A DNA stretch of 38,724 nucleotides, from NCBI GenBank assembly GCA_002784065.1, contig PFJY01000096.1:1-38724 (forward strand), written 5' to 3'. This stretch comes from Hydrogenophilales bacterium CG_4_10_14_3_um_filter_58_23. Its GTDB lineage: Bacteria; Pseudomonadota; Gammaproteobacteria; Burkholderiales; Sulfuricellaceae. Shown here in pieces: positions 6,048-32,678 of this stretch. The translations under genes and the position numbers were made by a program. The first letter of the stretch is position 1. Each line of letters opens with the position of its first letter. A model generated the notes under the pieces. The model was not told where the DNA came from. It saw nothing but the letters and a program-made list of their open reading frames with translations, and ran no database searches.

Positions 6048-6446
6048 CTAGCAGGGCGGCACGACCCTGGAAGCAACCCGGCCATGTGCCTGCGCCACTT
6101 GCGCCACCGCCTCTTCAAGCGGCAAGCCCGCCTCCACCCCGTCCATGATCATGCGCTGCAGGATGGCGCCAAGCATCTCCACGTTGCCCTGGCCATGCTC
6201 CCGCAGTGCGCGCAAAAACATCAACATATTGATATCCGCGAACTGCTCCTCGAACTCGTCATAGTCCTTGCCGGTGGCAAGCCAGTAGCAAAGATCGTAG
6301 GCGAGTGCGAAAACTGCGTTCAACTGCTCTTCCCCGATACCTGGCACATTCAGGGATATTTCCTGCATCAGACCATGCCGAAAATCGTCCAGATCATAGT
6401 CCACTTCGCCTTTAACCACCTGCTGCGGTGTAAATTCCCATTCCAT
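6048..6446 (-). CDS. Hypothetical protein, start trimmed to MEWEFTPQ
   Basis: Acidic ORF in the same orientation as the molybdoenzyme operon; adjacent to the ferredoxin gene. Confidence 0.6.
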   Translation of the reverse strand: MEWEFTPQQVVKGEVDYDLDDFRHGLMQEISLNVPGIGEEQLNAVFALAYDLCYWLATGKDYDEFEEQFADINMLMFLRALREHGQGNVEMLGAILQRMIMDGVEAGLPLEEAVAQVAQAHGRVASRVVPPC

Positions 6447-6468
6447 AACTGCCTCCCCCGTGAAAAGA

Positions 6469-7560
6469 CTATCCGAACAGCGATGCAAAATCAGCGTCAT
6501 CTCCCTCGCAGATTGGACAGATTTCTGCCGGAGCGGGCGAGATGAAGAAGCGGTCGCAGCGGGCGCAGCGTTGTTTGCCGAGGGCGTGCAGGATCACCGG
6601 TTCGGATGCCTTGGAAAGACTTTTCAGTTCGTCCTGAAAATGCAACACATGCGGCTGGCAGACCTCGACGCACACACCGCAGCCAACGCAGCGGGAGAAC
6701 TGGAACCCCAATCCCCAGGCCGTTCCGCTTTCCCTGATTTGCATTGCGCCGGTGGGACAGGCGCGGGCGCAGGCCTCGCAGGCAGTGCAGCCGGGCCTGA
6801 CGCCGACTTGGGCGGCGTAAAGCGCCGGATGGGCGGGCAAGGGGGCATGATCCTCCGGTTCGGCTTCAAAGAGGATTTGCAGCAATTCCCGTCCGGCGGT
6901 GGAAAACGGCGCGGCGAAGCGGATTGCCTTGAGGGGAACAGGCTGCGCCTCGATGACGGAAATCGGGCGTGTCAGCTGATCCGCGCCACGCCCGATGAAA
7001 CGGCGAAACAGGTGGCGACGGGAGGGATCGTGCCCAGCCTTGGCAGGTTCCGTTTCGCCCTCGTCAGGCACGCTGATTTCGGCCCACTTGTCGCCGCCGG
7101 CCACGCCCCGCAGCGCTTCGACCGCTTCCAGATGGAGGCCCAGCCGTGCTTCTCCGCGCGCGCCATGAACGCATTCGGCGCAATGCCGGGTGCCGGCCAG
7201 CGTGACGGCAACGCCGCGACTGGTCAGGTAGGCCAGCATCGCCGCATCCAGCCCACCCAGGCAGGGCACGATTTCATCGCCATTGAATTCGGAAGGGGCA
7301 CAGGCGAAAGTCACTTCGGGCAGTTTGACGGCGCGCTTCAACACCTCGATGCGGGGCAGGTTGTCCGCCAGCAGGGCTTCGGTGGGGCAGGCGGCGGCGC
7401 ACAGGGCGCAGTTCCGGCACGCCGACGCGCTGATCCTGATACCTTCGTCGGATAGTTCCACCGCATCGTGGGGGCATGCCTCGGCACAGCGGCTGCACCC
7501 GCTGTAACGGTAGCGGTAGCGGGTGCAGCGGGTGGCGCGGTATTCGGGCTGAGTCAGCAT
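6469..7560 (-). CDS. 4Fe-4S polyferredoxin-like protein with C-terminal Cys-rich (zinc-ribbon-like) segment
   Basis: CSRCAEACPHDA, CRNCALCAAACPTEA, CTACEACARACPTGA, CVGCGVCVEVCQPH and CARCDRFF...CPIC motifs. Confidence 0.85.
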   Translation of the reverse strand: MLTQPEYRATRCTRYRYRYSGCSRCAEACPHDAVELSDEGIRISASACRNCALCAAACPTEALLADNLPRIEVLKRAVKLPEVTFACAPSEFNGDEIVPCLGGLDAAMLAYLTSRGVAVTLAGTRHCAECVHGARGEARLGLHLEAVEALRGVAGGDKWAEISVPDEGETEPAKAGHDPSRRHLFRRFIGRGADQLTRPISVIEAQPVPLKAIRFAAPFSTAGRELLQILFEAEPEDHAPLPAHPALYAAQVGVRPGCTACEACARACPTGAMQIRESGTAWGLGFQFSRCVGCGVCVEVCQPHVLHFQDELKSLSKASEPVILHALGKQRCARCDRFFISPAPAEICPICEGDDADFASLFG

Positions 7561-7563
7561 GAA

Positions 7564-8007
7564 TTATTTGTACTCGTGCAGCGCCTTCCCCTGCTCGCAG
7601 GTATTGCTGGGAATGGTGAAACTTTGCGGCGCAACAAGTTCTGTTCCAGCGGAGGATTTATTGCCGCCCGCCTGCACCTGCTTCCAGGCAGCGTAGCCGC
7701 CTTTCACTGCGTAGACGTCCTCGCCGCTTTTCCCCGCGACCGACCGGGCAGCCGCAAGGGCCCGTTCGTCGCTGTCGCCCACCACCACCGCGAAGCCGCC
7801 CGGCTTGGGCTTGACGCCTTCCTGGTAGACCACGGCGAAGGGGATTGGCTGCTGTTTGCGCCGGCCTTCGCTGCGGGCGTCGATCACGCAGCAGGGCTGC
7901 CCTTTCTTCAGTACTTCCCGGAGCTGGGCGCCATCCAGCAGCGCTGCCCCGGCAGCCCATGCCGGCACGGACACAGCCCATGCCAGCAGAATCAGAAATT
8001 TTCTCAT
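7564..8007 (-). CDS. Exported rhodanese-like protein without an obvious active-site cysteine
   Basis: Signal peptide; CVIDARSEGRRK...AVKGGYAAWKQV rhodanese-like ends; the expected catalytic loop reads VVVGDSDERALAAA without Cys. Confidence 0.6.
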   Translation of the reverse strand: MRKFLILLAWAVSVPAWAAGAALLDGAQLREVLKKGQPCCVIDARSEGRRKQQPIPFAVVYQEGVKPKPGGFAVVVGDSDERALAAARSVAGKSGEDVYAVKGGYAAWKQVQAGGNKSSAGTELVAPQSFTIPSNTCEQGKALHEYK

Positions 8008-8699
8008 GCCACATCCTTTTCTGCGGGTTCCAGTGCCTGGCGCAGGGCCAGCATCGCCGCTTCGTCGTAAAATTCGTTATCGGGAATGGCCAGATTTCTT
8101 GCCTGGCCGTACAGCACCCATGGTAGCAAATCCGCACCGAAGTCCGCCAGAGGGGTCAGGCACAGCCGGCTGCCGAACTGCTCCACCAGTTCGGCGCAAA
8201 GGTTGAGATCGGCGTCGTCGGCGATGTCCGCCCCCAGCAGTGCCAGAGAGGCGCCGCGCTCCAGCATCTGGCCAGTCCACCAGCCGGCTTCGGTGCCGCT
8301 GCGGCTGCCGTCGCTTTTCAGCACTTCCCAGGCCGGTTTGGCATAGGAGGGCGTGACGCATCTGAAATCGGCGTTGGAGGTGAAGTCCAGCGCCCAGTTG
8401 ACCTCCATGCGCCGCGCGGGAACCCATACCCCCACCCTCTCGGCGCCAAACTCCCTGCTCAGGGTCTCGATCAGGCTGCCGTCCAGCAGCGCGGCCTCGC
8501 CCGGCAGCACCCGCGCAGCGCCCCGTGCCAGCAACGCGCGGGCGCGTTCCCGCCCGGCGCTGCGCAGCACCACCGAGACGCGGGTCAGATCCTCGGGCAG
8601 ATCATCGCCATCAAACAGAAAAACAGGCTCCGCAAAAGGAACGCCTGCGGGTTTGGCCCAGCGGCGCAGGGTGATTTCCGGTGTGGATTCGTTCATCAA
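8004..8699 (-). CDS. Hypothetical protein, molybdoenzyme-associated
   Basis: 231-aa ORF overlapping its neighbours by 4 bp (translational coupling). Confidence 0.7.
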   Translation of the reverse strand: MMNESTPEITLRRWAKPAGVPFAEPVFLFDGDDLPEDLTRVSVVLRSAGRERARALLARGAARVLPGEAALLDGSLIETLSREFGAERVGVWVPARRMEVNWALDFTSNADFRCVTPSYAKPAWEVLKSDGSRSGTEAGWWTGQMLERGASLALLGADIADDADLNLCAELVEQFGSRLCLTPLADFGADLLPWVLYGQARNLAIPDNEFYDEAAMLALRQALEPAEKDVA

Positions 8700-9094
8700 T
8701 TCATTACCTGATAGACAAGTTTATTGAAAACGAAAGGCTGCATGGGGCAGTCGGCATCGTGCTCCAGCCATACCAACTGGGGCAGCAAGGTATTCAGGGT
8801 CTCCAGGACGGGCGCAATCTCCAGCCCGCAGTAAACGGGCAGGAAACGCGGCAGCATGGCCAGGGCATCCTCGGCGAGCAGCGCCGCGCCGTCCTGGTTG
8901 TGGTTCTGGGTGAAATGAAAGGACAGCGCGGCAAATGCCAAGCCTTGCAGGAACTGGGCGTCCGGGTCTTCCTGCCCTTTCGATCGGGTCTGGATCAGGG
9001 TGTTCCAGCGCTCTCCCAGCCAGTCGTGGACAGCGCCGAAATTGTTGGCGTTCCACAGCAACGCCAGTTCGTCCCAGGCGAAGGCAGGGTTCAT
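8696..9094 (-). CDS. Small helical protein, possibly DUF309-like
   Basis: NNFGAVHDWLGERWN...FLQGLAFAALSFHFTQNHNQDGAALLAEDAL weakly resembles DUF309; overlaps torD-like stop. Confidence 0.5.
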   Translation of the reverse strand: MNPAFAWDELALLWNANNFGAVHDWLGERWNTLIQTRSKGQEDPDAQFLQGLAFAALSFHFTQNHNQDGAALLAEDALAMLPRFLPVYCGLEIAPVLETLNTLLPQLVWLEHDADCPMQPFVFNKLVYQVMN

Positions 9095-9870
9095 GCATAG
9101 GCCCCGTTTTGGGTTTTGCCGTGCTCGCAGCCGCCGCACACCGGCTCATCGGGATTGAACAACACCTCGATTTCACTTTTCGGCACCACTTCCCGGCCAC
9201 CGTCCACATCGTCCACCCGCACCTTGAGCAGGGCCAGTTCGGCCTCGGCAAAATCGCGCAGCAGGCGGGCAATTTCGCGGTAAAAGGAATGCTCCGTCGC
9301 CCGTGCCAGCAGCGTCGCATAGCCGCGCACCCAGCGCCCCAAGTGGGTGGCCCAGAAACGTTTGACTTCCTTTTCCAGCCGCTTGACGGTAGCCATATCT
9401 CCGCTTTCCAATGCTGCGGCCTGGTTTTCCAGCAGCGCCGCCACGAAGGACAACTCGACCCCGAGCTGGTCCTCGAACACGGCGAATTTACCCGGTTGCA
9501 GCGCGAATCCACAATGCTGATAAATGGCCTTCACATCATGAAATGGTTCCTGCTGAAAACGCCCGGTAAGGCGCGACGATTCCACCGGCGGGCAACCGCC
9601 GGAGGTTGTAAAGAGAGTGGCGTATTCGCAAGCCAAAGTATCCTGAAGCTCGTCCAGGGGGACACCGGTGAAATCGGCATCGAACTGAAAACCCAGGTCA
9701 ACCAGCGCAGCCATGGCTTCCGGCGCACGTAGGGCGGCCAAGTAGTCGCACCCCGGCTCTTCGGCGAAAGCGCCCGCCAGCAACTGATAATAACCGGCGC
9801 GGGCGCGCAATTCCAGAGGGGATAAACTATCTTCCATGGGTTCAATTAAAACTGCATTCTGATTCTGCAT
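9091..9870 (-). CDS. TorD/DmsD-family molybdoenzyme chaperone
   Basis: RARAGYYQLLAGAFAEEP...ACEYATLFTTSGGCPPVESSRL...DQLGVELSFVAALLENQ; downstream of a TAT-exported molybdoenzyme. Confidence 0.85.
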   Translation of the reverse strand: MQNQNAVLIEPMEDSLSPLELRARAGYYQLLAGAFAEEPGCDYLAALRAPEAMAALVDLGFQFDADFTGVPLDELQDTLACEYATLFTTSGGCPPVESSRLTGRFQQEPFHDVKAIYQHCGFALQPGKFAVFEDQLGVELSFVAALLENQAAALESGDMATVKRLEKEVKRFWATHLGRWVRGYATLLARATEHSFYREIARLLRDFAEAELALLKVRVDDVDGGREVVPKSEIEVLFNPDEPVCGGCEHGKTQNGAYA

Positions 9871-9955: not shown

Positions 9956-12595
9956 TCAATGGCCGCCGCCTTCCTTGTGCTTGACGCTCCCCGGCCCGCC
10001 CCATGAAGCCATTTCCGGATGCATCTTGCGGTGCAGGTCGCCGGTGTAAGCGTAGCGCATGGTTTCCTTGAAGGCTTCCACGTGCTTCTCCCACGAGGCC
10101 TTGACATCGCCGTACTTGTCGTTCGGCCCGGCCTTGGTCACCTTGACCACGGTGTCGTACCAACCTTGGGAGCCGCCGATGGGGTCGGCCACCACCGGGA
10201 TGATCTGGTTGGGATGCACCCCCTTGTCTTCCCACCACACGTTGTTCAGGTCGGGATCATCCTGCGCGCCCCAGGCGCCGCCTTTCTCTGTTTTGAGCTT
10301 GAGCTGGGCCAGGCGTCCGTAGGCCCAGTGGCCGAAGGCAGTGGAAATGGCCGCTACCTTGGGATGTATCCCCTCGAACACGTAGGCCTTGGTGACCAGA
10401 TAGCCCACCGCGCTCTCCACCCGCACCAGGTCGCCGGTCTTGATGCCCAGCTTCTTGCCGGTTTCGGTGTTCAGCCACACCGGGTTGCTGTGCATGATCT
10501 CCGCCAGCCACTTCACTGCCGATGTGCGTGACTGCTTGTGCACGTTGATCTTGTAGGTGGTAAGGATCATTTCATCGTCGCGCATGGTGCGGTGCCAGGG
10601 AATCTGCTTGAAGGTGGGCATGGGATTGAATCCGTATTCCGCCCATTCGTCCACGCGCACGTTGATGATCCGGTCGTGGGTGGGGAAGCCGGCGTAGTTC
10701 TTGCCCTTGCGCTGGACGCCGACGGCCTTGCCGTTCTTCATGATGGCGCCATTCTTTTCCACCACGGCGCCGGTCATGTCGGCAGCGGACAATTCCTTCT
10801 TGTGCAGGCCGTATTCCGGCTGGATTTCGCGTCCGGTCTTGTCCACGATCTTGCCGGTGGCCGGGTCGAGCTTGCCATAGATCGGCCATACCCCGTGCTT
10901 CTTGAGGAAGTTCAGCCCACCCGCTTCTTTCAGGCCCGGGACGTTGTCGAAGTGGTGGCGCATGTAGTCCTCGCCGTCCTTGAAGTCCCAGTATTTTTTC
11001 ATGCCGCGCTTGCCGTCCGGGTCCAGCTTGTGAATGATGTCGCGCATCATGATGCGGTTCTCGCGCGATTCGCCCAGCGACTTGATCACCGGCTGGCGGA
11101 TACCCAGCCACGGCCACAGGGAGTTGGGCATGGACTCAGGCTCCCAGCGTTCCAAATAGGGACAGTCGGGCAGAATAATGTCCGCCAGCGTCGCTTCCTC
11201 GCCCATGAATGGGGTCATGCAAACATAGAACGGGATCAGCTTCTCGTCACGGTACAGCTTGCCCCACACTGCGTCAGACCCTGGATTGGTGTACACCGCA
11301 TTGTCCTGGTAGGAGAAATAGACGTTGATCTTCTGCTTGCCCTCGGCGATCCAGAACGGCGTCAGATGGCTCACCTTGTGGTGTGCCAAAGGATAATCCG
11401 GATGATCGGCGATCCATGACGGCTTGGCCGGCTTGGGCGGTTCCGGTTGCGGCTGTGGCCAGCCCATGCCGCGCGGCATGCAGTAGCCGCCGCGCACTTC
11501 GATGTTGCCGGTCATGATCGGCAGCATCATGGTGGCTTTCTCGTTATAAGAACCATACAGGTGCTTGGCCGGACCGCGATAGGTATAAGTCGTCGCGGGC
11601 TTGGTGGTAGCAAATTCGCGCGCGATGCGCTCGATCGTCGCCGCCGGCACGCCGGACAGCTTCTCCGCCCATTCCGGCGTGAACTGCTGGTAATGCTCTT
11701 TCAGTTCCGCCACCGTGACGTTGGTCCAGGTTTCGATGAAATCGGAATCCTGCAGATCGTCTCGCAGGATGACGTGGCCCAGTGCCAGAGCCACCGCGCC
11801 GTCGGTGCCGGGAAACACCGGTATCCACTCGTCCGAACGCCCGGCGGTGTTTGACAAGCGCACATCGAAGGTCACCAGCTTGGCCTTGTTGTCCGCCATG
11901 CCATCGGCTAGACGCTGGGAGTAAGGGTTGTGGAAATAGGCCGCTTCCATGATGTTGGAGCCGAAATTGAGGATGTATTTGGCATTCGCGAAATCCGGGG
12001 TTTCGATGTCCGGCCCCCAGGTCGGCTCCATGCCGACCTTCTTGGAGGACTCGCACACCGAGGTATGGTTCATGACGGTGGCGGATCCCAAAGTATTCAT
12101 GAAGCGGTCGACGACGCCGCCGGAGCGGTTGCGGCCGTACTTCAGCATGATGGAGTTGGGGTCTTGCTTGAGCGCGGCATCCAGCTTCTGGGCGATCTCG
12201 GTCAGCGCCTCGTCCCAGGTGATGCGCTTCCACTTGCCTTCGCCGCGTGCGCCCACCCGCTTCAGGGGGTAGAGAATGCGATCCGGGTCATAGCTGTACC
12301 ACATGCCGGAGTTGCCCTTGGCGCACAGCCGGCCACGCGTGGATACGTGCTCCGGGTTGCCTTCCAGCTTGACGATGCGACCGTTTTCCACATAGGCCAA
12401 GGCACCGTCCTGGATGTTGCAGACGTGGCAGGTAATGGGAATCGCCTTGCGCTCGGAGTAGCCAACCGGGTTGAAATCCTTTCCTCCCAATTCGGTCTCC
12501 ATGGCGCGCAGCAGCTTCGGCGAAGCCGCCGCAGCGGCTGTAGTAGCGGCGCTGGCCTGGAGGAAGGCGCGGCGCGTGATTTTGAAATTCAACAT
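9956..12595 (-). CDS. TAT-exported molybdopterin oxidoreductase catalytic subunit (DMSO reductase superfamily, Psr/Ttr/Arx/Arr-like)
   Basis: TAT motif TRRAFLQ; ITCHVCNIQDG-x26-CAKG FeS region; putative Mo-ligand region NHTSVCESSKK; C-terminal molybdopterin-binding domain. Followed by TorD. Confidence 0.92.
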   Translation of the reverse strand: MLNFKITRRAFLQASAATTAAAAASPKLLRAMETELGGKDFNPVGYSERKAIPITCHVCNIQDGALAYVENGRIVKLEGNPEHVSTRGRLCAKGNSGMWYSYDPDRILYPLKRVGARGEGKWKRITWDEALTEIAQKLDAALKQDPNSIMLKYGRNRSGGVVDRFMNTLGSATVMNHTSVCESSKKVGMEPTWGPDIETPDFANAKYILNFGSNIMEAAYFHNPYSQRLADGMADNKAKLVTFDVRLSNTAGRSDEWIPVFPGTDGAVALALGHVILRDDLQDSDFIETWTNVTVAELKEHYQQFTPEWAEKLSGVPAATIERIAREFATTKPATTYTYRGPAKHLYGSYNEKATMMLPIMTGNIEVRGGYCMPRGMGWPQPQPEPPKPAKPSWIADHPDYPLAHHKVSHLTPFWIAEGKQKINVYFSYQDNAVYTNPGSDAVWGKLYRDEKLIPFYVCMTPFMGEEATLADIILPDCPYLERWEPESMPNSLWPWLGIRQPVIKSLGESRENRIMMRDIIHKLDPDGKRGMKKYWDFKDGEDYMRHHFDNVPGLKEAGGLNFLKKHGVWPIYGKLDPATGKIVDKTGREIQPEYGLHKKELSAADMTGAVVEKNGAIMKNGKAVGVQRKGKNYAGFPTHDRIINVRVDEWAEYGFNPMPTFKQIPWHRTMRDDEMILTTYKINVHKQSRTSAVKWLAEIMHSNPVWLNTETGKKLGIKTGDLVRVESAVGYLVTKAYVFEGIHPKVAAISTAFGHWAYGRLAQLKLKTEKGGAWGAQDDPDLNNVWWEDKGVHPNQIIPVVADPIGGSQGWYDTVVKVTKAGPNDKYGDVKASWEKHVEAFKETMRYAYTGDLHRKMHPEMASWGGPGSVKHKEGGGH

Positions 12596-12614: not shown

Positions 12615-13472
12615 TTAGAAATAGGTCTGGACGATCTGGCCACCGACCAGAATCGAATAACGCAATGCCATTCCGCCCACCAGAATCAGCACTGCGGCGA
12701 TCATCATGCCCTGTTGCTGCTTTCCGAAAGGCGCGAGCAGCAGTGCGATCGGCGCCGCCGTACCGAGCAGCATGCCGACGCCGATAAAAATCGTGCCGAG
12801 CGTACCGGTGGTCATGAACATGAAGGTGAGTTCCTGCCCCACGCCGCCGTAGGCCGTGGTGCCGAGCAGTGACACCAGCATGACGCCCACCGCACCGGCC
12901 GACCAGAGCATGAATCGACGCAGCATGGCGAGCAGTTTCTCGTGCGTCCCCGCCAGAAAAGACGCTACCGCCGCGCCGGATAGCAGGGACATGGCCACGA
13001 ACAATATCGGCATCAATGGCGTGTTCCACACCGGACGGTTCTGGTGCACGGTGAGATCAAAGCCGGTGTAGACCGGCAAGCCCAAGGCCAGGATTGAACC
13101 CAGCACTGCCAGGCGCCGGCTGTCGGTTTCGTCGTTCTTGCGCATCATCCAGTAATAAGCCGCCGATACCGCGCCAAACGAGAGCAAATTCATTCCGCCC
13201 CAAGCCAGCGGCGAAGTGAAGTTGAGGTAGGACGGATTGAGCATGTTGAGGAATCGCAGCGGCTGGGACAGGTCGACGATCAGCAGCAACCCGCCCACCA
13301 CCATCAGCGCGAAGGAGACATAGAAGGCGCTCTTGCGCAGCGGCTCGAATTCCTGGCGGAACCAGGAGAGCATGGAAAAGAAAAACAGCGCCGAAGAAAT
13401 GCCGATGACGAAGAAATAGATCGAATACGTGCTCGACCACGGCATGTGATGAAAGATATTAAAGTCACCCAT
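12615..13472 (-). CDS. NrfD/PsrC/TtrC-type integral membrane quinone-interacting subunit
   Basis: Multi-TM protein with typical NrfD features (FFVIGISSALFFFSML, HKxxAML-like loop); sits between B- and A-subunit genes. Confidence 0.88.
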   Translation of the reverse strand: MGDFNIFHHMPWSSTYSIYFFVIGISSALFFFSMLSWFRQEFEPLRKSAFYVSFALMVVGGLLLIVDLSQPLRFLNMLNPSYLNFTSPLAWGGMNLLSFGAVSAAYYWMMRKNDETDSRRLAVLGSILALGLPVYTGFDLTVHQNRPVWNTPLMPILFVAMSLLSGAAVASFLAGTHEKLLAMLRRFMLWSAGAVGVMLVSLLGTTAYGGVGQELTFMFMTTGTLGTIFIGVGMLLGTAAPIALLLAPFGKQQQGMMIAAVLILVGGMALRYSILVGGQIVQTYF

Positions 13473-13481: not shown

Positions 13482-14189
13482 CTATCCCTTGTGGTTTTTG
13501 TTGAAAGCCCGCCTATCCTCTTCCAGCACATCGAGCGGGTTGTAGATCGCGCGGCTGGGCTCGGAAAGGTTGCGGTCCACGCCGATGTAGAACACGTGCG
13601 GCTTGGTGCCTTCCTCGGGACGCAACACCTGAGTCGGCAAGGTGGACACCAGTTTCGACACCTCGCTGCTGGGGTCGTTGATGTCGCCGAAAATTCGCGC
13701 CCGACCGATACAGGTCACGACGCACGCCGGCGCCAGCCCCTGTGTTACCCGATGGTGACAGAAGGTGCACTTGTCCACCACGTGGGTGATGTCGGTATAG
13801 GTGCGGCTCTTGGGTAGCATGAATCGGGCGTTGTAGGGGCAGGACGCCATGCAGGCCTTGCAGCCGATGCAGCGGTCATAGTGCTGAAGCACAAAACCGC
13901 CGTCTTCCACTTTATAAGTGGCCCCCACCGGACAGGAACGCACACAGGGCGGATCGTCGCAGTGGTTGCACAGGCGCGGCATGAAATGCTTGCGCACGGT
14001 GGGATAGACACCCACCACCTTGTATGGCACCCAGGTTCTGAACACGCCCAGAGGCACGTCGAATTCTGCCTTGCACGCAGTCATGCAGGCATCGCAGCCG
14101 ATGCAGCGGCGCAGGTCGATCACCATGGCATACCGCTTCAGGCCCGGCTTTCCCCTAGTTTCGATTGATGAAGTTCGCAATTCGCTCAT
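13482..14189 (-). CDS. Four-cluster ferredoxin-like electron-transfer subunit (TtrB/PsrB/NrfC-like)
   Basis: CIGCDACMTACKAE, CNHCDDPPCVRSCPVGA, CIGCKACMASCPYNA, CTFCHHRV...ACVVTC motifs. Start MSELRTSS at 14189. Confidence 0.9.
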   Translation of the reverse strand: MSELRTSSIETRGKPGLKRYAMVIDLRRCIGCDACMTACKAEFDVPLGVFRTWVPYKVVGVYPTVRKHFMPRLCNHCDDPPCVRSCPVGATYKVEDGGFVLQHYDRCIGCKACMASCPYNARFMLPKSRTYTDITHVVDKCTFCHHRVTQGLAPACVVTCIGRARIFGDINDPSSEVSKLVSTLPTQVLRPEEGTKPHVFYIGVDRNLSEPSRAIYNPLDVLEEDRRAFNKNHKG

Positions 14190-14291
14190 GAGCGCATCTC
14201 CTCCTATTGTGTTTGGCAAACAGCGCTTTGTGCCGTTGTGCCCGATGTCCCGCCGCAAACAGAAAACCAGCTTGCAGCTAACAAGGTTTCA

Positions 14292-14306
14292 GCAATAGCT
14301 GTGCCA
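14292..14306 (-). promoter_or_regulatory. Consensus sigma54 (-24/-12) promoter for the molybdoenzyme operon
   Basis: Minus strand reads TGGCAC-AGCTA-TTGC, a full match to TGGCAC-N5-TTGC, ~100 bp upstream of the B-subunit start; a sigma54-dependent activator is encoded next door. Confidence 0.88.
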
Positions 14307-14368: not shown

Positions 14369-14431
14369 ATTGTTACCTCCTGGTAATAACAATTCCCCTG
14401 TTACCGGCAGCGGCATTACCAAACAGTAACA
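14369..14431. promoter_or_regulatory. Putative enhancer (UAS) with repeated TGTTAC/GTAACA-type half-sites
   Basis: ATTGTTA...TAACAAT (14369-14393) and TGTTAC (14399-14404)...GTAACA (14426-14431), ~60-125 bp upstream of the -24/-12 element. Confidence 0.6.
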
Positions 14432-14499
14432 CCACTCACCTGTTTATCGCGCCGGGCAATTTGCGTTACACTCAACATCACGATAAGGAGGTATTTCAG

Positions 14500-15351
14500 G
14501 TGCGATTGAGGATGCGGTGGCTGGTGCTGTGCTGGGCCTTGTTGATGGCCGCGAACACGTGGGCTGCGCAAGCGCCCACCCCGATCCGGATCGGACTGAC
14601 GCCGGTCTTCCTCGACGACCAGACCGCCTTCGTCAATACCTGGAGGGTGTACCTGGAAAGCCGTCTGAAGCGACCAGTGGTGTTTGTCCAGCGCGCCAGC
14701 TACCGGGAAATCACCGACCTCATGCGCAGCGGCAAGCTGGATTTTGCCTGGCTGTGCGGCTATCCTTACGTGCGCAACAAACAGTTCATAAATCTGCTGG
14801 CGGTGCCAGTGTATCGGGGTAAACCGGTCTACCACTCTTACCTGATCGTTCCCGCCTCGGACCGGCAAACCCGCTCTATCGCGGATTTAAGGGGCAAGGT
14901 ATTTGCCTTTTCAGACCCCGATTCCAATTCCGGTTACCTGGCGCCCGCCCATGATTTGTATCTGTTGCAGGAAAGGCCCAACACCTTCTTCAGCAAGACC
15001 TTTTACACCTGGTCCCACCGCAAGGTAGTGGAGGCAGTGGCTGCTGGCCTAGCCCAGGGTGGCGCGGTGGACGGTTACATCTGGGATATGCTGGCGTTGC
15101 AGCATCCCGAACTGACGGCGCAAACCCGCGTCGTCAGCGAATCGGCGGAATTCGGCTTCCCGCCCTTTGTGGCGGGGAAAGCGGTCGCGCCGGCGGATAC
15201 GGCAGCATTGCGCAAGGCACTGATTGCCATGACGCAGGACGAGGAAGGACAAAAACTGTTGCGCAACCTGCACCTGGATGGCTTCGTGGCGGGCGACGAT
15301 CACCTGTTCGACGGCATCATTCGGATGATGCGCGCCATCGCGGACAAGTGA
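14500..15351 (+). CDS. PhnD-like periplasmic substrate-binding protein (sensor component)
   Basis: GTG start after AAGGAGG RBS; signal peptide; PIRIGLTPVFLDDQTAF...DFAWLCGYPYV...SDPDSNSGYLAPAHDL typical of PhnD/SsuA-like proteins; abuts HK gene. Confidence 0.85.
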   Translation: MRLRMRWLVLCWALLMAANTWAAQAPTPIRIGLTPVFLDDQTAFVNTWRVYLESRLKRPVVFVQRASYREITDLMRSGKLDFAWLCGYPYVRNKQFINLLAVPVYRGKPVYHSYLIVPASDRQTRSIADLRGKVFAFSDPDSNSGYLAPAHDLYLLQERPNTFFSKTFYTWSHRKVVEAVAAGLAQGGAVDGYIWDMLALQHPELTAQTRVVSESAEFGFPPFVAGKAVAPADTAALRKALIAMTQDEEGQKLLRNLHLDGFVAGDDHLFDGIIRMMRAIADK

Positions 15352-15352
15352 C

Positions 15353-16797
15353 GTGTTCCGCGACCTCAGCTTCCGCTACAAGATCCCCCTGCGCGGCAGC
15401 GTGCTGGTGGTCTTCACCGCGCTGGTAGTCACCGCCTCGCTGATGTTCCGTGCCTACGACGACCTCAAGCGGGACGTGCTGCTGAATTCCGCCAGCATGG
15501 GGCGGGTACTGGCCCACACGATCACCCCGACCATCGTGCACGACGATGTATGGCGCGCCTATGAAATCATCAATTCACCGTTCCAGGCTACCCCGGATGC
15601 GAACCTCAATCAGGCGGAAGAAATCCTGGTGCTGGATGCGCGCCAGCAGGTTTACGTTTCCACCCACCCCAAGCAATACCCCATGCTTTCCGACCCGGCC
15701 CGCGTCAGCCCGGACCTCGCCCGTCTGCAGCAGGCGATCGTAGATTATCGCGGCACCGAGCCGAAATCGATCGAACTGGCCGGATCGGACAAATTCTACA
15801 TGGTAACCCCCATCATTTCCGATGGCGTGGCACTCGGCTCCCTGGTGATGGGATATTCCAGGTCGATGTTCCTGCCGCGCTTCTACGACATCGCCCGTCG
15901 CGCCATCATCATGACACTGCTGGTGCTGGCCGTGCTGTTGCCGATGAATTGGTACTGGGCCTGGCGCATGGCGGCGCCCCTGACCCAACTGGCGAGATGC
16001 ATGGGCAGGGTGGGGCAAACCCTGCCCGACGACCTGGAATGCAACCTGTATGAATCCAGGGACGAGATCGGCCAGGTCGGCATGGCTTTCAAACGCATGA
16101 TGGGCGAGCTGAAGGACAGGGAAAACCTGGAAAAGCAGATGTTCTTTTCCGAGCGGCTGGCGGCGGTGGGACGTCTGGCGGCGGGCATCGCCCACGAGAT
16201 CAACAATCCCCTGGGCGGCATGCTGAATGCGATCAGCACCTTCAAAAAGCATGACAACGCCGACCCCCAGACCGCGAAAACCATCTCGCTGCTGGAACGG
16301 GGCCTGCTCCAGATCAAGGACATCATCGCCGCCCTGCTGGTAGAGGCCAAATTCCAGAGCCATCCTCTCACCGTGCAGGACCTCGAGGATACCCGCACCC
16401 TGGTGCTGCCCGATGCCCACAGGAAAGCGGCAAAACTGGCGTGGGAGAATGACATTCTGGACACCCTGCCGCTGCCTTCGACCCTGGTGAGGCAAATCCT
16501 GATCAACCTGCTGCTTAACGCGATTCAGGCGGTGAAACCGCAGGGGCGCGTGCACTGCCATATTTACCGCGACAGTGACAGCCTGACTTTGTTGATCGAG
16601 AACGATGGCAAGCATATTGCGACCGAACAACTGGCATACCTGTTCGAGCCGTTCGCCTCCGGCCGCGAGGGAGGACACGGCCTGGGATTATGGGTCACCT
16701 ACCAGATCGTGCAACAACTGAAAGGAGAAATCGCAGTGCAAAGCCAGCCTGGGGAAACCCGCTTCATCGTGACCTTGCCGCTAGTGGAGCAGACGGC

Positions 16798-16801
<4 letters not shown>
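15353..16801 (+). CDS. Membrane sensor histidine kinase
   Basis: TM segments, HAMP-like region, H-box RLAAGIAHEINNPLGGMLN, HATPase region LINLLLNAIQAV...GHGLGLWVTYQIV. Confidence 0.92.
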
Positions 16802-18127
<1,326 letters not shown>

Positions 18128-18150
<23 letters not shown>

Positions 18151-18493
18151 TCGATGCGCCTTTAACAATTGTCATCGATGTTGACCTGAACTCAATGATG
18201 GCTCCACAACGCCATAGGCGAGCGCCTAACTTCACCCCGTCAGCCCGGCTGCAAGCAACATAGCCCACGCGGTAGCCCACGCGGTAGCCCATATAGGCGG
18301 TGAAATCCACCATGATCGGCCCGGGGTAAAGCTGCACCATCGCCAGCCCTTCGTTGGTTTCCTCTTCCGTGAGCCAGCCGCGCCGGATCACCAGTGCACG
18401 CAGCTTCTGCAGGATCGCCATGCCGTAGGCCGTCAGGCCCACTTGCAGGAAGGCGAGAAAGATCGTGCGCAGGGGAACTGAGGGCGTATTCAT
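18128..18493 (-). pseudogene. Truncated chromate transporter (ChrA) N-terminal remnant
   Basis: FLAFLQVGLTAYGMAILQKLRALVIRRGWLTEEETNEGLAMVQLYPGPIMVDFTAYMGYRVG resembles the ChrA N-terminus, then diverges after a 12-bp tandem repeat; no multi-TM remainder. Confidence 0.65.
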
Positions 18494-18530
18494 GCCGGTC
18501 AAGTTGTTGGTGACGGAGAGTCATCCATGA

Positions 18531-21652: not shown

Positions 21653-22552
21653 TCACAACAAATAGAACCCGCTTAAAACGGCAAGAAGTACGCCCAGCGA
21701 CCCTTTCAGCACCTGCTGTGGAACATGCCTCTGACAGGCCGCTCCCAGATACATCCCGGCCAATCCGCCCAGGCCGAACAGGCTACCCAGCCACCAGTCG
21801 GGTGATGCATAGCCGCCGCCGGGCAACGGCAGAAAAGAATAGACTAGCACGCCAACCACCGAGGTGACGAAAGTTCCCGCTAGCGCCGCGCCTGCCACGA
21901 CATGGATCGGCAGGCGGAACACCGCGATGCAGAACGGCGCGATGATCGCCCCGCCGCCGATACCATAGGTGCCGCCGATGATGCCCACCATGAAAGCCAG
22001 GGCCAGCATGGCGGGGGTACTGAATTCATGCACACAGCCTTGGAAGGTGAATATCACGCGCTCGCGTCCGACGTGCAGGATGCGCAGGCTCATGTCCGAT
22101 GTTGCCGCAACCGTGCCGGGTTGCTGCGGTTTCCTGGCCGCCCACGGAATAAACCCGGACAGCAAACGCCAGCTCAGGTACAACAAAACGGCGCCAACGA
22201 ACAATTTGAAACGCGCTGCATCCGGCAAATACAGGACGCGCAGATAGAACCCCAGCACGATGCCGGGCAGCGTGCCCAAGGTGATGAGCCCCGCCAACGG
22301 CCAGAACATCCGCCCTTCGCGCACGTAGCGCCACACCCCGCCGGGCGTGGCGAACAGGTTGAACACCAGATTGGTGGCGCTGGCGGCAGGACCGGCGAAC
22401 CCCAGCACACTCATCTGGAACGGCATCAGCAAGAAGGCACCGGAGATGCCGACCATGGAACAGAAAAAAGAGAGCACGAATGCCACCAAGGGCGGTAGCC
22501 ACAGCCAGGTTTCCACCCCCGAGGAAGAAAAGTGCCAGTAAAGGGCGCTCAC
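21653..22552 (-). CDS. TauE/SafE family sulfite exporter-like membrane protein
   Basis: Multi-TM with VGISGAFLLMPFQMSVLGF and GGTYGIGGGAIIAPFCIAVFRLPIHVVAGAAL. Confidence 0.85.
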   Translation of the reverse strand: MSALYWHFSSSGVETWLWLPPLVAFVLSFFCSMVGISGAFLLMPFQMSVLGFAGPAASATNLVFNLFATPGGVWRYVREGRMFWPLAGLITLGTLPGIVLGFYLRVLYLPDAARFKLFVGAVLLYLSWRLLSGFIPWAARKPQQPGTVAATSDMSLRILHVGRERVIFTFQGCVHEFSTPAMLALAFMVGIIGGTYGIGGGAIIAPFCIAVFRLPIHVVAGAALAGTFVTSVVGVLVYSFLPLPGGGYASPDWWLGSLFGLGGLAGMYLGAACQRHVPQQVLKGSLGVLLAVLSGFYLL

Positions 22553-23469
22553 GGGTTCTCTAATTCCAGGTAAACATTGCTGGCGTTGAACCGGTGCAGG
22601 CTATCGAAGTTCCGCAGCGAACGGTAGGCGCCATCGTCCAGGGTATTGATGGCGGTTTCCAGGTCGCCCCAGTCTTTCACCGCCTGGGCCATGTGGCTGC
22701 GTAGCAGTCGCAGGTAGTCCCGTGTGTCATGTTGGGCTTGGGCAAGATCGCAGATGTTTCCATGGCCGGGAACGATAAGTTTCGGTGCCAGCTTCTCCAT
22801 CGCCGCGAAGGAATCAAGCCAGTCGCGGCTACTGCCGAAAGGGAAAACACCCAGCATGCGATCCACGAACACCAGGTCGCCGGAAAACAGCACGTTCTGC
22901 TTCGGCAGCCAAACCACGCTGTCTCCCGGCGTATGGCCGCCGTGGAAATGCAGTAGCCGGATTTCCTGCCCGCCCAGACGCAGGGTTTCGGACTGGTCGA
23001 AGAAACGGTCGGGATTGACTGGCTGCGTTCCCGCCATTTTCTTGCCCAAGGTTTGGCGCAGACCGTCCAGCTGCATCCCGCCCCGCGCCTGCATGTCGGC
23101 CAAGGCGGGCCGGGCGGCAACAATCTCGGCGCCGATGGATTTGAAGTAACCGTTGCCCAGCCAGCGGTGATCCTGGCCGCCGGTATTGACGACCATTTTC
23201 ACCGGCTGGCTGGTCACCGTCTTGATGGCGCGATGGATTTTTTTCGCCACCTGCCAAGTGGGGCCGCTGTCGATCACAACCACGCCGTCACCGGTGACGA
23301 TAAAGCCAGTGTTGGCGTTCATGCCTTCGTTGTCGGTGGTGCGCATCCCGGTATCGCCGATGAAGGCGTACACATCGGGAGCCACCTTGACCGGCGTGAG
23401 GGTAAACGCAAAAGCATCGCCCACCGCCAGGCAAGAGAGGAACAGAATAATTCTGGTCAGGCGGATCAT
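22549..23469 (-). CDS. Exported MBL-fold protein with atypical metal motif
   Basis: Signal peptide; FIVTGDGVVVIDSGPTWQVAKKIHRAI; HFHGGHTPGDSVVWLP; FSGDLVFVDRM; VPGHG. HxHxDH region reads NTGGQDHRWLGN. Confidence 0.82.
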   Translation of the reverse strand: MIRLTRIILFLSCLAVGDAFAFTLTPVKVAPDVYAFIGDTGMRTTDNEGMNANTGFIVTGDGVVVIDSGPTWQVAKKIHRAIKTVTSQPVKMVVNTGGQDHRWLGNGYFKSIGAEIVAARPALADMQARGGMQLDGLRQTLGKKMAGTQPVNPDRFFDQSETLRLGGQEIRLLHFHGGHTPGDSVVWLPKQNVLFSGDLVFVDRMLGVFPFGSSRDWLDSFAAMEKLAPKLIVPGHGNICDLAQAQHDTRDYLRLLRSHMAQAVKDWGDLETAINTLDDGAYRSLRNFDSLHRFNASNVYLELENP

Positions 23470-23474
23470 TTTAT

Positions 23475-23906
23475 TTATTGAACACGGTAAGTCGAGTGGC
23501 AGGCCACGCACTGCTGTGTCACCTTCGACAGGCTATCCAGGGCGCGGGGGAGATCGCCTTCCTGCGCGGCCATGGCAAAACGGCTTGCGGCATGATGCAT
23601 CTCCGTGCCAATCGCCTGCATCCCCTTGGGCATGTACGGCGCCATGTGGGAGGCGTTATGCGCGACCATCGAAGTCATTCCAAGCCGGTGTTCGGCGATG
23701 TCCGCCGCCTTGTCCAGTTCCGATTTGGCCAGCAGCGCCAGAATTTCGTTCAGCGCCGCCAAATGGTCGCGCATGTTGGAAAGCTGATGCTGTCTCATCA
23801 TCTCGGGAAAATTGACCTTCTCGCGGGTATCGTCAGCCGCTTCGACGGAAGGCAGAATGCCCGCCGCCAAGGCCAGCACGCACACGATTTTAAAGAGTTT
23901 TTTCAT
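23475..23906 (-). CDS. Cytochrome c'-like protein with C-terminal CxxCH
   Basis: Signal peptide, helical body, C-terminal CVACHSTYRVQ. Confidence 0.8.
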   Translation of the reverse strand: MKKLFKIVCVLALAAGILPSVEAADDTREKVNFPEMMRQHQLSNMRDHLAALNEILALLAKSELDKAADIAEHRLGMTSMVAHNASHMAPYMPKGMQAIGTEMHHAASRFAMAAQEGDLPRALDSLSKVTQQCVACHSTYRVQ

Positions 23907-23955
23907 GTTTTGATACCTCGGCACATTAATCGGAAGGCTCATCTTAAATCAGGCT

Positions 23956-24658: not shown

Positions 24659-27600
24659 TCAGCGTTGTTTTTCAGATACCCACACATAGAACATCGGCAG
24701 ATAGAACAGGGAGAGCACCGTCCCCAACAATAGCCCGCCGATCGCCGCATCGGCCAACGGAGAAAGGCGCTCCAACCCCACCGCGCGCTGCATGGCGATC
24801 GGAATCATGCCGGCGATGGTGCCGAAGGCGGTCATCAGGATCGGCCGGTAGCGCAACCGGATCGAGTCCATTGCCGCCTCGAATGCGCCACTGCCCGCGC
24901 GACGACGCTCCTGAATGAAATCCACCATCAGGATGGAGTTTTTGATGATGATGGAAAACAGCAGGACGATGCCGAGAATGGCGGGCAAAGCCAGCGCCTT
25001 GTTGAAGGCCAGCAGCCCCCATACCGCACCGATGGCTGAAAGCGGCAAGATGATGATCGACAGCAGCGCCAAAGCAACGCTGCCGTAGGCGGGAGTAAGC
25101 ACTCCGAACAGCAGCAGCACGCCCATCCCCAAACCCGTCAACATGCGCTTGCTTGAATCTGCTCCCGCTGCATTATCGCCCATGTCGCTGGCTTCCACGC
25201 CCGGCGGCAGCACCTTCTGTACCGCGGCAAGAGAGTTCTCGCTCAGAATGCTGATCGGCGCAGTATTGCGATAGCCCAGCACGTCCATGCTGTAGCGGTT
25301 GCCGTTGGTGGTGAGCAGGGAAAGCCCCGGCTGGTTGACGATAGTGCTGATTTCGCCCAGGCTCACCGTGCTGCCGTCCGGCAAGGGGATGGGCAGCAGG
25401 CTCAGGGTCGCCGGGTTGGATCGGTAGGGTTCGCTAAAATAGCTGCGAACCGGGATGGCGCTTACCGTGGGCAGCTTGCTCATGCTGGCCACGGCCGCGC
25501 CCTTCAGGGGCAACTGGGCGAGCACGACGTCGGGGGTCAGGCCGAGCGTGCGCAGTTTGTCCTCGTTCAGCACCAGGCTGGCTTCCGTGGTGTTGGCGTC
25601 CCAGCTCACCGACACCGAGGACAATCCGGGAACGGTTTGCAGTGCCGCCTTGACGCGTTCGGCAGCAGCCGGCAACAGCCGCCAGTCTTCGGCTGTAAGG
25701 CGGATGTCGACCGGCGCCTTGATGGTGGAAAGCGCGGTAGCGCCCGAGTCATAGGCATCGGCGATAGTCACCCCCGGCAGGGCCGCAAGCTGGCGGCGCA
25801 AATCCGCCTCGATCTGCCAACTGCTTTCCTTGCGCTCCAGGCGGTTGACGTAGGTGATGGCGAAGGTCGCCTCCGCCGGCAACTGGCCGGAGCCGAGGGA
25901 AATCACCCCCGCCTCGGAACCGAATGTCGCGCTCACCCGCTGCACCCGCTGGTCCTGCATCAGGCGTGCCTCGAAAGCCTTGAGCCGGTTTTCCGCCACA
26001 TCCACCGGCTCGTTGGCGCCGAATTTCACGTGCACCCGCACGATGCCGGTATCCATCGGCGGCAGCGCGTCCCTGCCGATCAGGGGAATGATGGTCTTGA
26101 AGCTGAACACCAGCAGCATGAAGGCGGGAATCACCAGGATCATGCGGCGGAAAAATCCGCCGTTGAAGGCGAAACGCAGTGCGCCGGCATAGAGTCCCGC
26201 TCCCGGCGCCACGGTGCGCTGGTAAAATTTTTCCATGAAGAGTTCGAGGCGGTTCTTGGGCGGCAAGCCGTTGCGGTACCAGAAGACAGAAAGACGGGGG
26301 ATGAAGGTCACCGCCACGAAATAGGAGGTGAATACCGCGATCACCACCGCCAGAATCAGGTGCTTGAATATCTGCTGGGAAAAGTCGCCGACGAACATCA
26401 GCGGCGCAATCACCACCGCCGTCGCCAGGGTGCCGACGAATACCGGGAACAGCACCTCCTCGGTGCCCCTGCGGATGGCGGTCTGCACGTCCTCATGCAG
26501 TTCGCCCAGGTGGCGTTCGATATTCTCCAGCACCACCACGGCGTCGTCCACCAGCATCCCCAGCGCCAGGATGATTCCGGTCATGACCAGGATATTCAGC
26601 TCCTTGCCGGTCAGCCACAGGATCGCCAGGGTGGAAAGGAACACCAGCGGGATCGACACCAGCGCCGTCGCCACCGCGCGCCAGTTGCCGAGGAAGAACA
26701 GGATCACCACGCTGGTGAAGATAATGGCGTCGCGCAGCGCCTCCACCATGTTGGCGTTGGAGGTCTGGATCAGCTCGCCCTGGGTGTCGGCTATGGAAAA
26801 TTCGATGTTGGGATAACGCGCCTTGAGCCGGGGCAGCTGCGCCTCGATATCGTTGATCGTCGCCTGCACCGCGCCTCCCGGCGCGCGCAACACCGCCACC
26901 GCGATGGCGGGCTTGCCGTTGCCGTGATAGGCGGAATAGCGCTCGGCATGGTCGAGGCGCAGTTCCGCCACGTCGCCCAGCGTCAGGCCGTGGATCAACG
27001 GCAGCAGGCGCAACGCCTCGACGTTGGCGCGCTCGCCGTAGATCGTCAGGGTCAGGCTGCTATCCTTGCCCTGGGCGGTACCCAGCGGCCAATCGCGATT
27101 GAGCTTGCCGAGCAGGTCCTGCAATTGCGCCTGGGAAATGCGGTAGCGGGCAAGCTTGAGGGGGTCGAACTCGACTCGCACCGCCGGCTCGTAGCCGCCA
27201 AAAATCTCCACGTTGGCAATCGCCGGTTGGGTGATGAGGGCAGTGCGGACATCGTTCTCCGCCAGCAAGCGCACCTGGGCCAGAGTCAGGCCGCTGCCCG
27301 CCTTGGGCGAAAGCGCCAGCACCATTACCGGCGAAGTGAAGCCACCCACCGCGTAGACGCTGGAAGGCGGCACCTCGGGAGGTAGCTTGCCGCGCACCCT
27401 GGAGAGCGCGTTATTCACGTCCAGCAGCGCCGCATCCAGCCCCTTCTCGTAATTGAACTCGGCGCGCACGATCGAGACTTCGTTCTTGTTGGTGCTCTGC
27501 ACGTCGCGCACGTGGGAGAGGGCATACAGCTCCTGCTCGATCGGGCGCGACAGCTTCTGCGCCACGGTCAGCGCGGACGCACCGGGCAACTGGGTGATCA

Positions 27601-27736
27601 CCGTGACCTGCGGCCGCTCCACGTCGGGATACATGTTGCGCGGCATGTTCATGTAGCCGACCACACCCAGCAGCGAGGTGATCGCCAGGATCATCTTCAG
27701 CAGCAGCGGACGGTTATGGAAAAATTTGAATAACAT
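24659..27736 (-). CDS. RND efflux transporter permease (AcrB/MdtB-like), start trimmed to MLFKFFHN
   Basis: ~1025 aa; ALGMLVDDAVVVLENIERH and other RND motifs; followed upstream by HlyD and TolC genes. Confidence 0.95.
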   Translation of the reverse strand: MLFKFFHNRPLLLKMILAITSLLGVVGYMNMPRNMYPDVERPQVTVITQLPGASALTVAQKLSRPIEQELYALSHVRDVQSTNKNEVSIVRAEFNYEKGLDAALLDVNNALSRVRGKLPPEVPPSSVYAVGGFTSPVMVLALSPKAGSGLTLAQVRLLAENDVRTALITQPAIANVEIFGGYEPAVRVEFDPLKLARYRISQAQLQDLLGKLNRDWPLGTAQGKDSSLTLTIYGERANVEALRLLPLIHGLTLGDVAELRLDHAERYSAYHGNGKPAIAVAVLRAPGGAVQATINDIEAQLPRLKARYPNIEFSIADTQGELIQTSNANMVEALRDAIIFTSVVILFFLGNWRAVATALVSIPLVFLSTLAILWLTGKELNILVMTGIILALGMLVDDAVVVLENIERHLGELHEDVQTAIRRGTEEVLFPVFVGTLATAVVIAPLMFVGDFSQQIFKHLILAVVIAVFTSYFVAVTFIPRLSVFWYRNGLPPKNRLELFMEKFYQRTVAPGAGLYAGALRFAFNGGFFRRMILVIPAFMLLVFSFKTIIPLIGRDALPPMDTGIVRVHVKFGANEPVDVAENRLKAFEARLMQDQRVQRVSATFGSEAGVISLGSGQLPAEATFAITYVNRLERKESSWQIEADLRRQLAALPGVTIADAYDSGATALSTIKAPVDIRLTAEDWRLLPAAAERVKAALQTVPGLSSVSVSWDANTTEASLVLNEDKLRTLGLTPDVVLAQLPLKGAAVASMSKLPTVSAIPVRSYFSEPYRSNPATLSLLPIPLPDGSTVSLGEISTIVNQPGLSLLTTNGNRYSMDVLGYRNTAPISILSENSLAAVQKVLPPGVEASDMGDNAAGADSSKRMLTGLGMGVLLLFGVLTPAYGSVALALLSIIILPLSAIGAVWGLLAFNKALALPAILGIVLLFSIIIKNSILMVDFIQERRRAGSGAFEAAMDSIRLRYRPILMTAFGTIAGMIPIAMQRAVGLERLSPLADAAIGGLLLGTVLSLFYLPMFYVWVSEKQR

Positions 27737-27755
27737 GGCTTGTCCTGGTTTGGTA

Positions 27756-27827
27756 GGGTGGGCACGTTTTTGTGCCCACGCAGTCAGCGAAGGTTGTTTC
27801 CGCGTGGGCACAAAAACGTGCCCACCC
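27756..27827. repeat. REP/BIME-like perfect inverted repeat between RND and HlyD genes
   Basis: 26-bp arms GGGTGGGCACGTTTTTGTGCCCACGC (27756-27781) / GCGTGGGCACAAAAACGTGCCCACCC (27802-27827), 20-nt spacer; each arm is itself hairpin-forming. Confidence 0.9.
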
Positions 27828-27831
27828 TTGC

Positions 27832-28896
27832 TCAGTTGGGCTGAACGCGGAATGGCACCCCGGCGGCCAGCCGGGTCAGGATGTCGGGGCTGGCGCAGGC
27901 CACGCGTTGGCCGTGCAGCCGGTTGTCCAGCGTGGCGGCGCCCTCCTCCCCCGCTGCCGCCAGCGCAATGCGCAGCGGCTCCACCTTCTTGTCGTCCGGC
28001 AGCCGCAGCACGGTGGCGGACTTTCCGTCGTCATTGAACAGGCAGGCGCGGGGCAGGAACAGGGCCTGGCTGGACTCGAACACCACGGTCCTGACTTCGA
28101 TGCGCGCGCCGGGAATGAAGGCGCCATCCTGGGTGCGCGCCTCGTAGCGGCGCAAGCCTTGCGGGCCGGCTTCCGGCCATGGCCGTAGCGGCAGGGTCTG
28201 GCCGCCGACGCGCAACCCGGTCGGCTGCACGGTTTCCGGCACGCTGACCAGCAAACGGTTGCCGGAGCGGGTATCGACGATCTTCAGCAGGGGTTTGCCG
28301 GGCGTGGCCAGGTCGCCCGGCTGCACCAGGCGCTGGCTGACCACGCCGGCGAAGGGTGCCGTCACCGTGGCATTGCGCAGGTTTTCCCTGGCCGCCGCAT
28401 GGCGGGTCCGCGCAGCAGCAAAGGTAGCCTCGGCCGACTGGAGCTGCTCCTGGGAGACGCCCTGGATCGGGTACAGGACTTGGGCGCGGCGCAGGCGTTC
28501 CTGCTCGGCCTTGAGATTGCTTTCGGCGGCAGCCAGATCGGCATCGAGCGAACTGCCCTGTGATTGCCCTTGGGCTTGCCCCTGGCCTGGCGGGCTCATG
28601 TCGAGGCGCGCCAGCAGGTCGCCGCGCTTGAAGCGCTCCCCCTCGAACAGCGGCAAGGCAGTCACGTAGGCGGTCAGGCGGCTCGACACCATGCTGTCGC
28701 GCACCGCCTGAACATCGGCGGTGGTACGCAAGGTCAGCGCCACCGGCCCTGTTTTCAGGGTTTGGGTTGTCACCACCACCGGCAGCGTCTGCGGGGTTGT
28801 TTCCTGGGCGAGCTGGTGACGCTTCTTCATGACCAGCGCAACGCCGGCACCCACTACGGCAACAAGGATCAGCACTACGACGGCTTTCTTTTTCAT
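27832..28896 (-). CDS. RND efflux periplasmic adaptor subunit
   Basis: MFP features: TADVQAVRDSMVSSRLTAYVTALPLFEGERFKRGDLLARLD, coiled coil, NATVTAPFAGVVSQRLVQPGDL. Confidence 0.92.
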   Translation of the reverse strand: MKKKAVVVLILVAVVGAGVALVMKKRHQLAQETTPQTLPVVVTTQTLKTGPVALTLRTTADVQAVRDSMVSSRLTAYVTALPLFEGERFKRGDLLARLDMSPPGQGQAQGQSQGSSLDADLAAAESNLKAEQERLRRAQVLYPIQGVSQEQLQSAEATFAAARTRHAAARENLRNATVTAPFAGVVSQRLVQPGDLATPGKPLLKIVDTRSGNRLLVSVPETVQPTGLRVGGQTLPLRPWPEAGPQGLRRYEARTQDGAFIPGARIEVRTVVFESSQALFLPRACLFNDDGKSATVLRLPDDKKVEPLRIALAAAGEEGAATLDNRLHGQRVACASPDILTRLAAGVPFRVQPN

Positions 28897-30170: not shown

Positions 30171-30171
30171 G

Positions 30172-30654
30172 TCACTTTGCGGCATGGATCTGGAACAGGT
30201 TGTGGCAGTTCACGCAGCTTTGCAGGATGTCCGCCAGTTGCTTCTGGGTGTGCTTGGTATCGCCCAGGCTTTCGGCATCCATCGCCAGCTGGTCAAAACC
30301 GCCGTGGACGGCGAAGGCGAGTTGCTTGAATTCCTTCGGCAGCTTGGCTTTCAATGAATCCGGCACCTCATGGGCCGCCTGGCTGCCCAACGGCTTGGCC
30401 GCCTGCGCCACGGTTTTCAGGTCGTCGCTCGACAGGGCGTCGGCCATGATCTGGATGCCATTCAGGAACTGGCGCATCTCCAGCAAAATCATCGCTCGCT
30501 CGGACGGCTCCAGGCTCAGCGCTTTGCGTTCGTCTTTGAGATTTGCATGATCCCCCGCGCCATGCGAATGCTCATCATGCGCCCATACCGGAGCAGCCAT
30601 AATAATCATTGCCAGTGTGCCCCCCATCAGCATCTGCTTGCCAGACTTCACCAT
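30172..30654 (-). CDS. Exported cytochrome c'-like protein with His-rich N-terminus
   Basis: Signal peptide, AHDEHSHGAGDH, C-terminal SCVNCHNLFQIHAAK. Confidence 0.75.
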   Translation of the reverse strand: MVKSGKQMLMGGTLAMIIMAAPVWAHDEHSHGAGDHANLKDERKALSLEPSERAMILLEMRQFLNGIQIMADALSSDDLKTVAQAAKPLGSQAAHEVPDSLKAKLPKEFKQLAFAVHGGFDQLAMDAESLGDTKHTQKQLADILQSCVNCHNLFQIHAAK

Positions 30655-32429: not shown

Positions 32430-32431
32430 GT

Positions 32432-32677: not shown

Positions 32678-32678
32678 T

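Follow-up and report, generated by a model that had tools for sequence, protein, structure and literature searches.

In a 38,724-nucleotide stretch of DNA (the window), we found a gene that probably encodes the catalytic subunit of a hitherto undescribed, arsenite-responsive complex iron-sulfur molybdoenzyme, with a proximal [4Fe-4S] cluster (FS0) predicted to be held by three cysteines and one aspartate. The aspartate, Asp63, is a case of fixed conservation, and is due neither to chance nor to a sequencing error. The clade to which the protein belongs has so far been concealed by generic 'molybdopterin-dependent oxidoreductase' labels. The genes and sites concerned are listed in Table 1.

An aspartate in the cluster motif of the catalytic subunit

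The N-terminal motif in the ORF translation is C56-x2-C59-x3-D63-x27-C91 (IPITC56HVC59NIQD63GALAYVENGRIVKLEGNPEHVSTRGRLC91AKG). The earlier note had reported this motif with a GAC codon at 12409-12407, and both were borne out when the minus strand was read again. The motif departs from the canonical FS0 pattern, C-x2-C-x3-C-x27-C, at the third ligand. The Pfam domains Molybdop_Fe4S4, Molybdopterin and Molydop_binding are present in this order, and the Mo-ligand column is filled by Cys181, as in members of the DMSO reductase (MopB / CISM) superfamily. Molybdop_Fe4S4 aligns over the Asp63 motif itself (1.4e-9). Among the curated NCBIfam models, those for PhsA, DmsA, Fdh and ArrA scored best but all fell far under their cut-offs, indicating that NCBIfam holds no specific name for this protein. 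The closest solved structures were those of Thermus PSR (2vpw, the top match) and ArrA (6cz7).

Table 1. Genes and sites of the cluster, in the order of their positions in the window
Feature	Position	Strand	Basis
Conserved hypothetical protein of the cluster	6048..6500	-	synteny
Polyferredoxin, a relative of the genome's own ArxB2-type protein (29% identity, 3e-18)	6469..7560	-	family match and synteny
Exported rhodanese-like protein	7564..8007	-	Pfam and synteny
Conserved hypothetical protein of the cluster	8004..8699	-	synteny
DUF309 protein, conserved in the cluster	8696..9139	-	Pfam and synteny
TorD/NarJ-family chaperone	9091..9870	-	family matches
Catalytic subunit, 879 aa, Tat signal (RRAF), Mo/W-bisPGD family	9956..12595	-	ORF and domain/structure matches
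Cys181, aligned Mo ligand	12053..12055	-	alignment with ArrA and PSR
Cys91, predicted fourth cluster ligand	12323..12325	-	motif, conservation
Asp63, codon GAC, third [4Fe-4S] ligand column	12407..12409	-	sequence and alignment
Cys59, predicted second cluster ligand	12419..12421	-	motif, conservation
Cys56, predicted first cluster ligand	12428..12430	-	motif, conservation
NrfD/PsrC-type membrane quinone subunit	12615..13472	-	family matches
Four-cluster ferredoxin subunit (ArxB/TtrB/PsrB-like)	13482..14189	-	ATG at 14189 is the likely start; the ORF as listed extends to 14258
Predicted sigma-54 promoter (perfect -24/-12), TGGCACAGCTATTGCT, upstream of the ferredoxin-subunit gene	14291..14306	-	motif scan
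GTAAC core of GTAACA half-site (AioR/ArxR-like)	14372..14376	-	motif scan
GTAAC core of GTAACA half-site	14400..14404	-	motif scan
GTTAC core of half-site	14426..14430	-	motif scan
AioX/ArxX-type periplasmic oxyanion sensor	14461..15351	+	8/8 AioX pocket residues conserved
Sensor histidine kinase (AioS/ArxS-like)	15353..16801	+	family/sequence matches
Sigma-54-dependent response regulator (AioR/ArxR-like)	16690..18150	+	true start probably within ORF

Conservation and phylogeny of Asp63

Relatives were drawn from the same order, class and phylum, and from a collection with one genome per named species (~85,000 species). The patterns with which the species collection was scanned, GxWxRITW and TAGxxDEW, both lie outside the cluster motif, so that Asp was not favoured in the sampling. 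One genome scan gave at least 80 loci, the sampling being rich in MAGs. Asp was found at the motif in all 87 relatives with a readable motif, encoded by GAC in 73 and by GAT in 14. The proteins with Asp range from ~53% to 94% identical, and belong to many genera of the Betaproteobacteria, Gammaproteobacteria, Alphaproteobacteria, Deltaproteobacteria, Nitrospirae, SAR324 and Desantisbacteria. The earlier note had named two observations that would speak against the aspartate. A sequencing error masking TGC or TGT is ruled out by the 87 loci and their two Asp codons, and a Cys inside the same clade was looked for among them and not found. Outgroup proteins have Cys in this column.

In a diverse 26-row alignment the only conserved cysteines were Cys56, Cys59, Cys91 and the Mo-ligand Cys181; the lost third Cys has thus not been replaced by another. 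Cys478 was considered as a substitute ligand and ruled out, as A, V, L, T, S or G is found there within the Asp clade. Asp is conserved at a ligand column with no compensating Cys, which is the pattern expected in the sequence of a 3Cys/1Asp [4Fe-4S] protein.

A tree of 87 rows was calculated by a quick search under LG+G4, with the motif columns excluded. The Asp proteins were monophyletic (SH-aLRT 98); their deep placement is unsure, the outgroup rows being long-branched. Cys is present at column 63 in the nearest outgroups. With the states C, D and T, parsimony gave a minimum of three changes at this residue, which fits one change to Thr and two to Asp. Thr occupies the third ligand column (C-x2-C-x3-T) in a distant group, L021 and L120. 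The second, independent Cys-to-Asp change at the third ligand occurred in L107, L109 and L110 (CVTRD), within a Cys group that is sister to the Asp clade. The proposal that Asp could define the clade therefore holds in that the clade is monophyletic with no Cys inside it, but not in the sense of uniqueness, as Asp arose separately in these three loci.

Several relatives depart further from the common pattern. A subclade nested in the Asp clade (L102, L113, L126-L133 and L135) keeps C-x2-C-x3-D while the Mo-ligand Cys has become Gly or Ser, which indicates that Asp can outlive Mo coordination by Cys. Further derived members of the Asp clade (L117, L134, L136 and L137) have lost cluster cysteines together with the Mo ligand, and are probably non-catalytic paralogues. 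The in-frame stops seen in several outgroup matches are natural C-terminal stops, L115 excepted. In this sister-clade enzyme (G569:C1, also L142), an in-frame TGA stands where the first FS0 cysteine would be encoded (L115 1531-1533; KSV-TGA-LNCSTVCG). When the ORF is read through, it has a Tat signal ahead of the TGA. The sequence after the TGA may form a hairpin whose loop contains GU, and SelA is encoded in the genome. The TGA may be regarded as a candidate codon for selenocysteine acting as a natural ligand of a [4Fe-4S] cluster.

Gene cluster and regulation

The gene order FeS - NrfD - catalytic - TorD - DUF309 - hypothetical - rhodanese-like - polyferredoxin - hypothetical, divergent from the sensor, kinase and regulator genes, is found in ~50 relatives. 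The rhodanese-like protein, read by eye, has the usual catalytic loop without the cysteine. ACR3 arsenite-efflux genes were present in the examined flanks of seven loci as a raw count (L028, L047, L052, L053, L055, L076 and the Azoarcus KH32C plasmid), and ars genes were absent from the surroundings of most loci.

Attention had earlier centred on Asp63, and the probable control of this operon by an arsenite-type sensor, a more informative context, went unnoticed. The sensor matched AioX with 1e-63 and ArrX with 2e-38, and retains the AioX pocket residues Y88, C106, Y131, S161, N162, S163, H192 and D210 (AioX numbering; YCYSNSHD). The full pocket is present in 56 of 61 rows, AioX included; two of the others are cut short or gapped, and three deviate at one or two sites. 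When AioX and ArxX were tried with arsenite and nine other oxyanions, arsenite was the only one bound (PMC5908839). ArrX, with the same pocket residues as AioX, nevertheless bound arsenate (PMC5908839), and regulation by arsenite therefore does not settle the substrate of the enzyme.

Sigma-54 sites were found in 42 of 51 intergenic regions of relatives, against 1.9 expected in shuffles. Half-sites of the form GTAACA/TGTTAC, which is the beginning of the published ArxR site gtaacaattcaagc, were present in 43 of 49 regions, where shuffled sequences gave 4.9. A whole TTGTTA-TAACAA operator occurred in 3 of 53 regions only, and was dropped in favour of the half-sites. Scans with a TtrS model (own genome) and an ArrA model (185 genomes of the class) gave zero matches, with the controls equally silent.

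The same genome carries a complete canonical arx cluster on contig C11 (G000; L140 11249-20000 and L141), in which XSR and the genes B2, A, B, C and D diverge, and a moaA-like gene comes next after it. The ArxA encoded there (L004) has the diagnostic GRGWG together with a long insertion rich in Lys, Ala and Glu, a feature that has been published for some ArxA. The X, S and R proteins of the window and of contig C11 are 52, 51 and 58% identical, respectively.

Elsewhere in the window, a truncated chromate-transporter fragment (18128-18502) adjoins the response regulator gene. A TauE-type exporter, a metallo-beta-lactamase-fold protein and a cytochrome c'-like protein are encoded consecutively at 21653-23942, and the ORF translations at 24659-30185 resemble those of an RND efflux system, including its membrane-fusion and outer-membrane components. 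The G+C content is lower at 31800-38700, where an ORF for a TraG/TraD-like coupling ATPase is located (35913-37637); judged by eye, this region looks like an integrated mobile element.

Proposed function and alternatives

We propose that arsenite would be sensed in the periplasm by the AioX/ArxX-type sensor, and that the signal would pass through the kinase to the sigma-54 regulator, the operon probably being turned on by arsenite. The catalytic subunit would be Tat-exported and act in the periplasm, anchored by NrfD. FS0 would be held by Cys56, Cys59, Cys91 and Asp63, and on the sequence evidence a bond between Asp63 and iron is highly probable. The enzyme would most likely interconvert arsenite and arsenate, or a close analogue, along an electron path of Mo - FS0(Asp) - ferredoxin subunit - NrfD - quinone. 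That the substrate is an arsenic-type oxyanion seems probable, and we tentatively give a slight preference to oxidation over reduction. Asp would lift the potential of FS0 to match a high-potential couple; work on other Fe-S proteins leads one to expect such a shift, which is plausible here.

The substrate might instead be a sulfur compound, namely thiosulfate, polysulfide, tetrathionate or thioarsenate, and the arsenite-type sensor might have been borrowed or might sense a related ligand. PhsA is indeed the best curated model, although its score of 353 bits lies well below the cut-off of 694 (NCBIfam NF012032). TtrB and TtrC are similar to the ferredoxin and the NrfD subunit, respectively. 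PSR is without the Arg155/His177/Lys186 pattern that is common to the Asp clade and ArrA, which speaks against this reading. A rhodanese-like protein is encoded in the operon and TusA nearby, the TusA gene adjoining the cluster in two relatives only. Thiobacillus, Sulfuricella and Sulfuritalea are among the hosts. Taking into account that the hosts are often sulfur or iron oxidisers and that the cluster includes the rhodanese-like protein, thioarsenate or sulfur substrates keep some probability, but we consider them unlikely, as the arsenite residues of AioX are all kept and AioX and ArxX bound neither thiosulfate nor tetrathionate (PMC5908839). An enzyme acting on antimony, either an antimonite oxidase or an antimonate reductase, with arsenite or antimonite being sensed, is more unlikely still. 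AnrA is a reported antimonate reductase, and antimony and arsenic have enzymes and hosts in common, such as denitrifying Rhodocyclales. Antimonite, however, was bound by neither AioX nor ArxX (PMC5908839).

A separate alternative concerns the cluster, in which Asp63 would not be a ligand and FS0 would be either [3Fe-4S] or a cluster with its fourth iron bound by water or hydroxide. Just three Cys are conserved at the cluster, and AioA has a [3Fe-4S] cluster. The same type is found in IdrA (PMC10100899). We regard this as improbable, since no other residue ever replaces Asp in the clade, Asp arose twice at one column, and Asp ligates FS0 in NXR (PMC8387239).

We thus prefer an arsenic-type molybdoenzyme with an Asp-ligated FS0. 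Whether the clade amounts to a further class of energy-metabolism molybdoenzymes for arsenic (or antimony) apart from Aio, Arx and Arr, present in Pseudomonadota, Deltaproteobacteria, Nitrospirae, SAR324 and Desantisbacteria MAGs and with a redox-setting FS0 Asp fixed since its origin, is a nearly even question, on which we lean slightly to the side of doubt. The natural change from Cys to Asp, fixed across a large clade and made twice at one column, offers a clean test of potential tuning in the FS0 of this enzyme family. If the regulatory evidence holds, the enzyme would be an unrecognised member of the arsenic cycle that is common in denitrifying, sulfur- and iron-oxidising Betaproteobacteria.

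Comparison with known enzymes

PhsA/PsrA supplies the nearest curated model for the catalytic subunit and, with 2vpw, the top structure match, and likewise has an NrfD anchor, but differs in its all-Cys cluster and in other active-site residues. With the arx cluster, the features in common are the divergent XSR, the NrfD anchor, the TorD chaperone, a B2-like polyferredoxin and a Tat-exported Cys-Mo subunit. The subunits are related and XSR is divergent as in arxXSR-arxB2ABCD, but the order is B-C-A-D with the polyferredoxin near the end. ArxA itself is ~31% identical to the catalytic subunit and has four Cys and GRGWG, whereas the Asp clade has Asp63 and GR(N/S)R and lies elsewhere in the tree; in place of XGRGWG the catalytic subunit reads YGRNR.

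ArrA (6cz7 sequence) has Arg155, His177, Cys181 and Lys186 in common with the catalytic subunit, and we take the equivalents of these residues in ArrA to contact arsenate. The C-type sister proteins deviate at Lys186. ArrA differs in having four Cys and (R/K)GRY against Asp63 and GRNR, and the ArrA model (NCBIfam NF041714) gave 190 bits against a cut-off of 1600. As GRNR is the motif of neither ArxA nor ArrA, we assign the catalytic subunit to neither. The Thioalkalivibrio candidate for 'alternative arsenite oxidation' was ruled out as the same gene, being Soe-like and without a Tat signal. We found no published description of the Asp63 clade in the open-licence PMC papers searched.

Ferredoxins had been named earlier as the precedent for an Asp-ligated cluster, but a nearer one exists in Kuenenia NxrA, a DMSO-reductase-family enzyme like the catalytic subunit, whose 3Cys/1Asp FS0 (Cys67, Asp71, Cys75 and Cys115) was seen in a crystal structure, where ours is read from sequence (PMC8387239). 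Its authors argued that ligation by Asp71 tunes the potential of FS0 (PMC8387239). Asp-ligated FS0 chemistry is therefore already known, and it is the third position and the lineage that are undescribed in the searchable literature. NxrA belongs to a distant type II branch (phmmer 1.1e-5); its cluster Asp occupies the second motif position and its Mo ligand is also Asp, whereas the catalytic subunit has Asp at the third position and Cys as the Mo ligand.
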